Part shown: positions 22,178 through 45,303 of the stretch, piece after piece | Numbering within the stretch: the first letter of the stretch is position 1 | How the letters are laid out: the number at the start of each line of letters is the position of its first letter | NCBI RefSeq assembly: GCF_947166265.1 | Contig: NZ_CAMVDO010000006.1 | Coordinates: 1 to 64,000 of the forward strand | DNA length: 64,000 bases | From: an uncultured Fibrobacter sp. | Lineage (GTDB): Bacteria; Fibrobacterota; Fibrobacteria; Fibrobacterales; Fibrobacteraceae | Direction of reading: 5' to 3' | Program-made: the position numbers and the translations under genes | Notes under the pieces: generated by a model | The model's database searches: none | Told to the model about the DNA's origin: nothing | The model's input: only the letters and a program-made list of their open reading frames with translations

Positions 22178-22200
22178 GGGGCAAGGCTCTTGCCAAACAC

Positions 22201-22290
22201 GACCGCACGAGCTGCAAATAAGTCGGTTCTTCCCGCTGGCTCGTGCTCTCGCCACCACGACTCATTAAGATGAGTCGCTTGTGGCTCACG
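22201..22290 (+). repeat. Covarying two-hairpin repeat, copy A
   Basis: GACCG, then stem 1 GCACGAGC (22205-22212) pairing with GCTCGTGC (22239-22246) over a 26-nt loop. Then TCTCGCCACC, stem 2 CGACTCAT-TAAG-ATGAGTCG (22258-22277) enclosed by GCCAC/GTGGC, and TCACG. Copies B and C keep the unpaired segments but change stem 1 by compensating substitutions. Confidence 0.8.
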
Positions 22291-22294
22291 ATAA

Positions 22295-22385
22295 GACCGG
22301 ACTGGCTAGGCTCTACGAGTTTATTACTCTGGAGCCAGTCCTCTCGCCACCACGACTCATTAAGATGAGTCGCTTGTGGCTCACG
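22295..22385 (+). repeat. Covarying two-hairpin repeat, copy B
   Basis: Same plan: GACCG, stem 1 GACTGGCT (22300-22307) with AGCCAGTC (22333-22340), a 25-nt loop. Bases 22341-22385 are identical to 22246-22290 of copy A (45 nt, period 95). Stem 1 shares little sequence with copy A but pairs perfectly. Confidence 0.8.
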
Positions 22386-22391
22386 GTACTC

Positions 22392-22420
22392 TTGCCAAGA
22401 GGTTTGTATTTTGTTACATT
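22392..22420 (+). promoter_or_regulatory. Possible promoter of the leuA leader
   Basis: TTGCCA (22392-22397), a 17-bp spacer, TACATT (22415-22420). Initiation would fall close to 22427, at or beside the ATG codons of the leader peptide, which has no Shine-Dalgarno upstream. A leaderless start is therefore possible. Pattern match only. Confidence 0.35.
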
Positions 22421-22495
22421 ATGGGCATGATGAAGAAGAATCTACGACTTATTAACCTACTAGGACGTTGCGCTGGAGCGCAAGCCGGTTTTTAA
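22421..22495 (+). CDS. Leucine leader peptide of leuA (24 codons or fewer)
   Basis: ATG at 22421 (or 22427 or 22430) to TAA at 22493-22495. The core reads NLRLINLLGRCAGAQAGF. It has four Leu codons, three of them CTA, a codon that is uncommon in the neighbouring genes, plus Ile. It lies directly before a terminator/antiterminator pair and 165 bases before leuA, which is the layout of ribosome-mediated attenuation by charged tRNA-Leu. Confidence 0.7.
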   Translation: MGMMKKNLRLINLLGRCAGAQAGF

Positions 22496-22660: not shown

Positions 22661-24232
22661 ATGAACGAGAATAAGAACACGATTGAAAGACAACCCTTCT
22701 TTTACGACGTCACGCTGCGTGACGGTAACCAGGCTCTTCCGAAGCCCTGGAACAATGCCCAGAAAAAGGACGTGTACCTGCAACTCTTGAAACTCGGCGT
22801 GCAGGGCGCCGAAGTCGGTTTCCCGGCTTCAAGCGAGATGGATTTTGAATCGTGTAAGGAACTTGCCCAGCTGACCGCCAAGATGGCCGAAGAAGGCGAC
22901 GAAGTCGCGAAGCGCATCGTGGTCTCTGGCCTCGCCCGCTGCGTGGAAAGCGATATCCAGCGTTGCTGGGAAGCGGTGCAGTACGCTCCGCATCCGCGTA
23001 TCCATACCTTCCTGGCTACAAGCCCCTTGTCCATGGAACATGTGCTGCACATGACTCCGGAACAGGTGAAGGAAAAGGCCGTTCATTGCGTGAAGTTTGC
23101 GAAGTCGCTCGTGGGTGACAAGGGTGACGTGGAATTCAGCGCCGAACACTTTGGCGACTGCCTCGAAAACATGGATTTTGTGATTGACGTGCTGAAGGCC
23201 GTGGTCGAAGCCGGTGCGACGACGTTGAACCTGCCGAATACGGTGGAACGCTATCGTCCGTTCCTGTACGTGAACCAGGTGAAGCAGGTTTATGAAGCGA
23301 TCCCGAAGAACGTGACCATTTCTGTGCATTGTCATAATGACCTCGGCATGGCGACTGCCGCCACGGTCGAAAGCTTCTTTGTGGGTGCGACCCAGCTGGA
23401 AGTGGCCCTGAACGGCCTTGGCGAACGTTGCGGTAACACGAACTTCTACGAAGTCGCTGTAGGCCTGCACAATTCCGGCGTGAATACGGGCCTGCACATG
23501 GAGCGCATTTACGAAACGGCCATCTTGATTTCCCAGTGGTCCGGCATCAGCATTTACAGCCGCGCACCGCTGATCGGTGCCGAAGCGATTGTGCACCGTA
23601 GCGGCATCCACCAGGATGGCGCCAGCAAGACGAAGGACATGAAGAAGGGCGCCTACCGCCCGATCGACTACTCCATCATCGGTCGTCACCAGAACGATTC
23701 CCTCAGCTTTACAAGCCAGAGTGGCCGTACCGCCGTGTACGAAATCATCACGAAGTTCGGCTACAAGATGTCGCTCGCCGAAGCAGCTGAACTGCAGCCG
23801 ATTCTGAAAGCTTGCAGCGAAAAGGAAGGCGAACTCTCTGCCGAACGCGTGCTGGATGTGTTCCGCGAGCATTTCGTAAATGTGAACGGCCGTCTGGTGT
23901 TCAACAACATCGAGGTCATTCCCGACGAAAACCGCTTTATCTTCCACTTCAAGAAGGATGGCGAAGCCTTGGTGAAGTCCGTGACGGCCGAAGGCCCGAT
24001 CGAGGCTGCCCTCATGCTCATGCGCGAAATCGGCATGCCGGTCGAACTCGTCAAATACCGCCAGCTCGTGGTGCCTGAAAAGGACAAGATGTGGGCGGGC
24101 CGAGGCCTCAGCCGCATCGTGCTGAAGGCGAACGGCGCTGAAGTTGAAGGCCGCGGTGTAAGCAGCGATACGCTCAAGGCGAACATGCGCGCACTCTTCG
24201 GTGGCGTGAACTTGCTGTATAAGAAAGCATAA
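22661..24232 (+). CDS. leuA: 2-isopropylmalate synthase
   Basis: First step of leucine synthesis: acetyl-CoA plus 2-ketoisovalerate. HMGL-like TIM barrel: FYDVTLRDGNQALPKPW (catalytic Arg-Asp), EVGFPASSEMDFE, HCHNDLGMATA (metal-binding His), and NGLGERCGNTNF. The C-terminal LeuA allosteric/dimer domain runs from about 390. A good AAGGAG ribosome site precedes ATG. Regulated, from the sequence upstream, by a Leu-codon attenuator. The enzyme is the slightly shorter class with the LPKPW signature. Homocitrate or citramalate synthases are related alternatives, but the Leu leader supports LeuA. Confidence 0.88.
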   Translation: MNENKNTIERQPFFYDVTLRDGNQALPKPWNNAQKKDVYLQLLKLGVQGAEVGFPASSEMDFESCKELAQLTAKMAEEGDEVAKRIVVSGLARCVESDIQRCWEAVQYAPHPRIHTFLATSPLSMEHVLHMTPEQVKEKAVHCVKFAKSLVGDKGDVEFSAEHFGDCLENMDFVIDVLKAVVEAGATTLNLPNTVERYRPFLYVNQVKQVYEAIPKNVTISVHCHNDLGMATAATVESFFVGATQLEVALNGLGERCGNTNFYEVAVGLHNSGVNTGLHMERIYETAILISQWSGISIYSRAPLIGAEAIVHRSGIHQDGASKTKDMKKGAYRPIDYSIIGRHQNDSLSFTSQSGRTAVYEIITKFGYKMSLAEAAELQPILKACSEKEGELSAERVLDVFREHFVNVNGRLVFNNIEVIPDENRFIFHFKKDGEALVKSVTAEGPIEAALMLMREIGMPVELVKYRQLVVPEKDKMWAGRGLSRIVLKANGAEVEGRGVSSDTLKANMRALFGGVNLLYKKA

Positions 24233-43960: not shown

Positions 43961-45178
43961 ATGTACACAGTATTGGAAAAAGGCGGCGTTTGCTCCCCCA
44001 AGGGGTTCACCGCGTCTGGAATTTGCGCTGGTATCAAGGCTAGCGGTAATGCCGATATGGCGCTTTTGAAGAGTGAAAAGGCTGCTCGCTGCTTTGCCGT
44101 GTTTACAACGAACAAGGTGAAGGCCGCTCCGGTACTTTACGACAAAGCCGCTCTTGAACATGCGCACTTTGCCTCTGCCGTGGTGGTGAATAGCGGTAAC
44201 GCTAACGCCTGTACCGGTGAACAGGGACTTCGCGATGCAGAACGTATGGCTACCCTTACGGAAGAAGCCCTGAAGCTGACTCCGAAGAGCGTTCTCGTTT
44301 GCAGCACAGGTGTGATTGGTCACCTGATGCCGATGGATAAGATTGAGGCGGGCATTCCGAAGCTCGTGGAAAAGCTCCATGCTGACGCTTCTGAAGAATT
44401 TGGCCGCGCCATTCTGACGACAGACCTTGCGCTCAAGAGCCATGCCGTCGAAATCCAGACCGAAAAGGGTGTGGTGACGATCGGTGGCGCCTGCAAGGGT
44501 TCGGGCATGATTCACCCGAATATGGCGACGATGCTTGCCTTTATTACGACAGACCTCGCTCTCCCGATTGATTTCTTTGCCGAATTCCGCGCCGACATCG
44601 CTGATTCGTTCAATGCGATTACGGTCGACGGCGATACGAGCACCAACGACACTTGCATCTTGCTTGCTAACGGCATGAGCGGCCTCAAGTACGAAGACTT
44701 GACCCTTACGGAACAGGGTGAATTCCGCGCCGCACTGATGCTTGTGATGAAGGAACTCGCAAAGGATATCGTGCGTGACGGTGAAGGTGCAACCAAGCTC
44801 ATTGAACTTTGCATCGAAAAGGCCGAAAGCCACGAAGAAGCTTTGCGTATGGCCCGTTTCATTGGTACGTCTAACCTTGCCAAGTGCGCCATGTTCGGCG
44901 AAGATCCGAACTGGGGCCGTATTCTGAGCAGTGCAGGTAGCAGTGGCTGCAACATGATTGCCGAACAGACGGATCTTTTCTTTGGCGATGTGCAGGTGCT
45001 TTCTAATGGACGTCCGGTGCAACTGGATGACGAACAGATGAAGGCTCTGCGTGCGGTGGTTCGTCAGCGTGAATACAAAGTAACGCTGGTGCTGAACATC
45101 GGACACGCTAGCGCAAGTGCATTTACCTGCGACTTGAGCTACGATTACGTGAAAATTAACGCTGAGTACACGACTTAA
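43961..45178 (+). CDS. argJ: Bifunctional ornithine acetyltransferase / N-acetylglutamate synthase
   Basis: ArgJ recycles acetyl groups in arginine synthesis. Key segments: VVVNSGNANACTGEQG, GVIGHLMPMDKI, GGACKGSGMIHPNMATMLAF with the self-cleavage site before the Thr of NMAT, VDGDTSTNDT, and GEDPNWGRILSSAG. AGGAG precedes ATG. Its own terminator lies after a copy of the covarying repeat. Confidence 0.96.
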   Translation: MYTVLEKGGVCSPKGFTASGICAGIKASGNADMALLKSEKAARCFAVFTTNKVKAAPVLYDKAALEHAHFASAVVVNSGNANACTGEQGLRDAERMATLTEEALKLTPKSVLVCSTGVIGHLMPMDKIEAGIPKLVEKLHADASEEFGRAILTTDLALKSHAVEIQTEKGVVTIGGACKGSGMIHPNMATMLAFITTDLALPIDFFAEFRADIADSFNAITVDGDTSTNDTCILLANGMSGLKYEDLTLTEQGEFRAALMLVMKELAKDIVRDGEGATKLIELCIEKAESHEEALRMARFIGTSNLAKCAMFGEDPNWGRILSSAGSSGCNMIAEQTDLFFGDVQVLSNGRPVQLDDEQMKALRAVVRQREYKVTLVLNIGHASASAFTCDLSYDYVKINAEYTT

Positions 45179-45181
45179 TAA

Positions 45182-45276
45182 GACCGAGCTGGCTAAATTC
45201 ACCAGAATCCTTACTCTGGAGCCAGCTCTCTCGCCACCGCCCCAGCTTAACGCCTGGGGCTTTGTGGCTCACGATT
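45182..45276 (+). repeat. Covarying two-hairpin repeat, copy C
   Basis: GACCG, stem 1 GAGCTGGCT (45186-45194) with AGCCAGCTC (45220-45228), 25-nt loop ending TTACTCTGG as in copy B. Then TCTCGCCACC, stem 2 GCCCCAG...CTGGGGC (45239-45260) within GCCAC/GTGGC, then TCACGAT. Stem 2 differs at nearly every position from copies A and B yet still pairs. Confidence 0.8.
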
Positions 45277-45300
45277 AAGACCGCTCGCTCAGCAAATAAG
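45277..45300 (+). repeat. Truncated fourth copy of the covarying repeat (D)
   Basis: AAGACCGCTCGCTCAGCAAATAAG resembles the start of copy A (GACCGCACGAGCTGCAAATAAG) but breaks off at the terminator. Confidence 0.55.
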
Positions 45301-45303
45301 TTG

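Follow-up and report, generated by a model that had tools for sequence, protein, structure and literature searches.

What is the two-hairpin repeat that occurs at two places in a 64,000-nt stretch of DNA from an uncultured Fibrobacter sp. (the whole of which we call the window): a structured RNA, a folded single strand of DNA, or a mobile element? All three natures were proposed in an initial annotation of the window, which counted three full copies and one partial copy; each of its segments is found at the position it gave, as two tandem units, a third unit and a 5′ fragment of a further one (Table 1). A covariance model (R1), built from 26 copies (alignment A1), scores the three units at 86, 84 and 77 bits, respectively, and finds no further match in the window at E ≤ 10. 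A 51-nt direct repeat (overall identity 96%) spans hairpin 2 of units 1 and 2, and this hairpin is identical in the two units, whereas hairpin 1 of unit 2 is of a different class from that of unit 1. The stop codon of argJ (ORF 43961–45178) lies 3 nt before unit 3.

Table 1. Units of the repeat and features beside them in the window
Feature	Position	Strand	Details
Direct repeat, left copy	22187–22196	+	CTCTTGCCAA, 10 nt, flanks two-unit array
Unit 1	22201–22289	+	GACC 22201–22204; TCTC 22247–22250; hairpin 2 22251–22285; TCAC 22286–22289
Unit 1, stem-1 arms	22205–22212 / 22239–22246	+	GCACGAGC/GCTCGTGC
Unit 2	22295–22384	+	Stem-1 arms 22299–22306 / 22334–22341, GGACTGGC/GCCAGTCC; hairpin 2 22346–22380
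Direct repeat, right copy	22389–22398	+	CTCTTGCCAA, 10 nt, flanks two-unit array
Unit 3	45182–45272	+	TCTC 45229–45232; hairpin 2 45233–45268, GCCCCAG core; TCAC 45269–45272
Unit 3, stem-1 arms	45186–45193 / 45221–45228	+	GAGCTGGC/GCCAGCTC
5′ fragment of further unit	45279–45301	+	GACCGCTCGCTCAGCAAATAAGT; GACC, stem-1 5′ arm, start of loop 1

On the gene strand, a unit of around 90 nt reads GACC–hairpin 1–TCTC–hairpin 2–TCAC (on the other strand, GTGA–hairpin 2–GAGA–hairpin 1–GGTC), with an AT-rich hexamer ahead and two purines behind. Hairpin 1 consists of an 8-bp base and a segment mostly of 25–29 nt that often holds another small hairpin; hairpin 2, which always follows it, has an outer stem, a small internal loop and an inner stem. 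A short form of around 65 nt is missing most of the hairpin-1 tip. At three loci (L026, L161 and L168), a third hairpin (CCACCTAAAGGTGG...) lies as an insertion precisely at the TCTC linker that joins the other two. GACC, CTCTCG and CTCAC are invariant in alignment A1. The annotation had also placed GACCG and two longer segments, TCTCGCCACC and GTGGCTCACG, in fixed positions, which is true of the window; across the family, the two longer segments are not fixed, and we rejected them as a conserved linear motif because CCAC/GTGG pairs as a stem whose letters vary (CAAC/GTTG, CCAA/TTGG, CCTC/GAGG, CGAC/GTCG and others). Among 137 units there are 25 kinds of the GCCAC/GTGGC stem, 84 of the hairpin-2 core and 63 of stem 1. 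Loop 1, given as 25 or 26 nt in all copies, ranges from 2 to 42 nt in an anchored parse, mostly 25–29 nt.

The stems change and their pairing is preserved, as the annotation held: in the 26 copies, 90.4% of stem cells are complementary, compared with 68.8% when partners are shuffled and 31–45% when the arms are slid, and the covariation score is 0.49 against 0.12 with shuffled partners and at most 0.09 when slid. Structure and covariation are real; the loops, which had been called conserved, are not conserved. Folding as DNA yields z-scores between −4.6 and −6.1 for both strands.

The covariance-model search of Fibrobacter genomes that the annotation suggested shows that the repeat recurs: 40 of 41 genomes carry it, with 2–87 copies each (E ≤ 1e-4), in a copy set enriched for units near the first model and, apart from the window's own genome, in draft assemblies. 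The window's genome itself has 56 matches at E ≤ 1, 54 of them with E < 0.01. In a class-wide draw, matches occur in 34 of 35 genomes of the genus and in few copies in 4 of 4 genomes of a sister genus (g10); the 22 genomes drawn from elsewhere in the class, in other genera or families, have none. The pattern of the repeat is also present in contigs named as Fibrobacter. Occurrence outside the Fibrobacteraceae was rejected, the few pattern matches there fitting the covariance model poorly (E of around 0.001–0.009) or not at all, and a search of viral contigs with one common version of the repeat gave no matches, so that viral carriage is not supported. The pairing and covariation controls, together with the distribution across the class, reject a chance origin. 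Rfam covariance models find one tRNA in the window and weak chance matches at the array, which also disposes of a hammerhead or other small ribozyme, and no description of a Fibrobacter repeat of this kind turned up in the open-licence literature, in agreement with the annotation, to which no similarity was known.

Where do the copies lie with respect to genes? Among 125 copies that stand first in their array, 95 have an upstream gene within 300 nt on the same strand and 17 have one on the opposite strand. Over half of the same-strand copies (56 of 95) begin between −2 and +6 nt relative to the stop codon; a further 18 overlap the coding frame more deeply, with the stop codon mostly around 16 nt inside the unit. 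The genes were called with a simple codon-usage model that had been trained on the window, so that single calls can be wrong. The unit often sits between the stop codon and a terminator-like hairpin. In fusA, rubrerythrin and argJ, the C terminus is the same in orthologues with and without a unit. Clean comparisons show the unit occupying the last codons and supplying the protein end: ...RAKLGA* becomes ...RAKLTA* (L140 and L443), ...LKKLAKA* becomes ...LKKAARV* (L354 and L435), ...DKR* is retained through AGG-TGA (L373), and a lysine-rich protein terminates within the unit (L368). Supply of the stop codon or C terminus by the unit accounts for harmless siting at stop codons, but only partly for the scarcity of units further 3′. 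At L418 (G005:C2:660517–661646), as at L368, the gene for a lysine-rich protein has the 5′ arm of hairpin 1 within its coding sequence and the unit encodes the C terminus; at L418, the unit and the gene end are tandemly repeated with a period of around 111 nt.

A structured RNA in the 3′ UTR, serving as an mRNA stabiliser, a processing site or a regulator of termination, and with its pairing selected on the gene strand, would fit this orientation (95:17) and siting, the frequent position ahead of a terminator-like hairpin, and the strong covariation. If the stems acted as RNA read from the gene strand, they should tolerate G·U and not A·C, and the expected excess of G·U over A·C is not found. 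At the compared stem positions of 195 distinct units, collected by linker anchors, there are 2,938 Watson–Crick pairs, 8 G·T (of around 2,960) and 15 A·C, in copies detected with a filter that counts Watson–Crick pairs only and so treats G·T and A·C equally. Terminator-like hairpins from the same loci show the opposite (G·T 188 and A·C 137 of 5,185); they served as the control in place of tRNA stems, which were dropped because their parse was unreliable and distinct tRNAs were few in these loci. With G·T nearly absent and not above A·C, the stems do not look like those of a sense RNA under selection.

A second feature of the stems may point to the other strand. At positions 3–4, the arms of stem 1 either are complementary or have exactly TC opposite TC, the latter in 118 of 195 units (61%); other states are few. 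In sense RNA, this conserved bubble would be a weak UC/UC; on the opposite strand, it is a tandem G·A/A·G mismatch. There, a pyrimidine precedes and a purine follows in both arms (Py-GA-Pu) in 116 of 118 bubble copies compared with 25 of 64 paired copies, a count that is not independent evidence, since common descent may have given the bubble copies their context. Tandem sheared G·A pairs are stable in DNA in just such a Py-GA-Pu context. Given also that the loops are not conserved, that relatives differ by swaps of whole hairpins, that Rfam has no match and that pseudogenes hold antisense copies, we regard a 3′-UTR RNA as unlikely. Of the natures first proposed, DNA or a mobile element fits better than RNA, on the near-zero G·T, the insertions in decayed genes and the replacement of hairpins.

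How, then, did the covariation arise? Covariation is commonly taken as evidence of a functional RNA, and the annotation treated it as the usual sign of a selected structure. Here it does not carry over directly to RNA, because much of it accompanies replacement of a whole hairpin or tip and stem changes by descent are one-sided (L046/L357, L358/L398 and L366/L389). Upstream flanks served to match 43 orthologous pairs from five genomes. Both hairpins are identical in 8 of these pairs and both differ in 8, in flanks that are up to 97–98% identical; hairpin 1 differs beside the same or a similar hairpin 2 in 10, and in 3 it is hairpin 2 that differs and hairpin 1 that is similar. The best case is that of L336, L346 and L416, which probably descend from one unit, given their common and unusual AACC start: the copies in G045 and G010 have a common hairpin 2 and different hairpin-1 tips, and those in G045 and G005 have a common hairpin-1 class and different hairpins 2. 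The tandem units of the window likewise combine a common hairpin 2 with different hairpins 1. Two-sided stem differences outnumber one-sided ones by 91 to 40 among units with near-identical loops, and by 104 to 26 where identical hairpin-2 cores stand on different outer stems. Exchange of hairpins or tips as wholes, in addition to a constraint that maintains pairing, is the simplest account of these patterns. Double changes inside one loop class could nonetheless be compensatory mutations under selection.

Arms might also be made complementary by palindrome correction, that is, by template switching in replication, with the shape itself unselected. Mismatched intermediates other than the bubble are indeed almost absent, and two-sided changes do occur among near-identical units, as such correction would give. 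The TC/TC bubble, however, should have been erased, and the one-sided changes by descent stand uncorrected; we consider this origin very unlikely.

Insertions and arrays support mobility. The genome of the window has one acyl-CoA dehydrogenase gene interrupted by three antisense units of the short form; other species carry intact orthologues of this gene. A further unit lies within a decayed second copy of frdB, at a distance of 2.5 kb from the intact one. Both hosts are pseudogenes, since the frdB copy is a truncated duplicate, excision of the units leaves the frame broken and the orthologues are intact; introns or translational bypass elements, suggested by hosts that at first looked otherwise intact, were rejected. 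On the gene strand, GCCAAGG is the sequence of all three empty target sites in the acyl-CoA dehydrogenase gene (L067 1500–2110, G000:C21); that of the insertion site in frdB is GGCAAGG. A pyruvate-ferredoxin oxidoreductase-like pseudogene fragment (L081 1–400, G000:C59) holds one short-form unit and one degenerate unit.

Compared with empty orthologues, four in-gene sites have lost 4–6 nt and gained 7–9 nt of new 5′ flank together with the unit, whereas occupied sites elsewhere show near-duplications. Flanks share a string of 7 or more in 7 of 110 copies, against around 2 of 110 in controls. The 10-nt direct repeat around the array of the window is a possible target duplication; despite it, a fixed target-site duplication is not supported genome-wide. 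At the orthologous site of a related genome (L190), a single unit stands between the same flanks as the two-unit array. Tandem copies are separated by spacers of 4–6 nt. In 37 of 145 copies, the first 12 nt of the copy are found again no more than 16 nt downstream, against none of 724 control comparisons; half of these recurrences are a 5′ fragment only, and upstream 3′ fragments are rare.

Copies in pseudogenes, as well as copy numbers that run from 0 to 87 among genomes of the genus, argue against inverted repeats that bind a protein, such as the gyrase or nucleoid-protein sites proposed for BIMEs, and that are spread by selection and not by mobility. Such sites would suit palindromes at the 3′ ends of the housekeeping genes fusA, argJ and a phosphotransacetylase-like gene, and the turnover of units at the same gene. 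As the letters of the dyad are not conserved, sequence-specific recognition of a duplex is itself unlikely, and we hold this explanation to be highly improbable.

Among known systems, REPs and BIMEs, and the REPtrons formed with TnpA-REP (RAYT), are the first to compare. REPs lie less than 20 bp from the 3′ ends of ORFs and can supply the stop codon (PMC3733652), and E. coli TnpA-REP acts on one single strand and requires a tetranucleotide and a bulge in the stem (PMC8266576). The Fibrobacter repeat resembles them in being a short interspersed palindrome, mostly at ORF 3′ ends and with possible supply of the stop, and in its unpaired tetranucleotide at the hairpin foot, stem bulge and tandem arrays (PMC3733652, PMC8266576). 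Unlike a REP, its unit comprises two unlike hairpins in fixed direct order, its stems vary freely, far more than in published REP families, and single hairpins are replaced; in place of the GTAG/CGTC tag of the REP superfamilies, its linkers are GTGA, GAGA and GGTC. Nor does it follow a Y1 transposase (PF01797), which is present in 12 of 41 genomes without relation to copy number and absent from the copy-rich G041, G045 and G048. Of 18 Y1 loci, 17 are free of units; at the remaining one, in G009, a unit lies around 250 nt from the Y1 gene. Gene distribution and linkage thus do not support Y1/RAYT as the mobiliser. A true REP/BIME nature, or derivation from IS200/IS605, with loss of the HUH (Y1) transposase from most strains, agrees with the hairpin features, the 3′-end siting, the supply of stops and the G009 locus, and yet is quite unlikely given the missing tag, the Y1 distribution and the variable stems.

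MITEs and palindromic elements derived from IS200/IS605 are non-autonomous, multi-copy, of around 90 bp and structured at both ends, as is the Fibrobacter repeat. The annotation's suggestion of a REPIN or MITE type nevertheless needs correction: a REPIN is an inverted pair of REPs, whereas this unit has two different hairpins in the same order, and unlike those of a MITE, its ends (GACC/TCAC) are not inverted repeats, no fixed target duplication accompanies them, the junctions vary and no parent IS was found. Integron attC sites are also folded single strands with degenerate stems just past a stop codon, recognised by shape as the repeat is proposed to be; alignment A1 lacks the conserved attC core boxes, and the units are scattered and not in cassette arrays. 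In form, the nearest analogues are mitochondrial hairpin repeats, the double-hairpin elements (DHEs) and repetitive hairpin elements (RHEs) of fungi and sponges, which are mobile, hairpin-forming and intergenic without a known enzyme. In sponge RHEs the stems are conserved and the loops variable (PMC2800124), whereas in the bacterial repeat the stems vary and the linkers stay. Its behaviour is closest to that of a REP-type element, and we do not file it as a member.

On balance, we favour, at somewhat better than even confidence, a short, non-autonomous, interspersed DNA element of Fibrobacter that is REP/BIME-like, is read as a folded single strand and has exchangeable hairpins. A putative enzyme would recognise one folded strand, probably that bearing the G·A/A·G mismatch, through its shape and linkers, which would leave the stem letters free. 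Units and single hairpins may be copied from site to site; such copying would bring both arms together and so give covariation without wobble intermediates. The siting at stop codons would follow from a stop that is supplied by the junction or by the first codons of the unit and that leaves the protein end little changed. Against this REP-like reading, the mobilising enzyme was not found and junctions are inconsistent between sites; the sense orientation and stop-codon siting also fit a function in the mRNA. A bolder proposal, that dedicated machinery outside the known Y1/HUH family reads hairpins of folded single-stranded DNA by shape (the tandem G·A bubble and linkers) and swaps hairpins or tips between sites, giving perfect covariation without compensatory point mutation, is tentative and rather unlikely to hold as stated.

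Strong covariation that comes with a DNA signature, in the near absence of G·T and of any excess of it over A·C, and largely with hairpin replacement implies that RNA-motif discovery pipelines need a test of wobble asymmetry. The mobiliser of the REP-like element, if found, may define a shape-reading system of DNA exchange in fibre-degrading gut bacteria. The units are also natural 3′-end marks on housekeeping genes that can be used for tests of effects on expression.

Two neighbouring features were seen along the way. Just past the stop codon at L300, L302 and L303 lies another family of hairpin repeats, for example GAGGCGAGCGTCGC...hairpin...ATGACCGAGCCGACGAGTC, of which a strict pattern gives two matches, both in L302. 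In the window, a leucine-rich short ORF at 22421–22495 (MGMMKKNLRLINLLGRCAGAQAGF*), followed by a terminator-like sequence, lies upstream of a 2-isopropylmalate synthase-like ORF at 22661 and is probably a leucine attenuator leader peptide.
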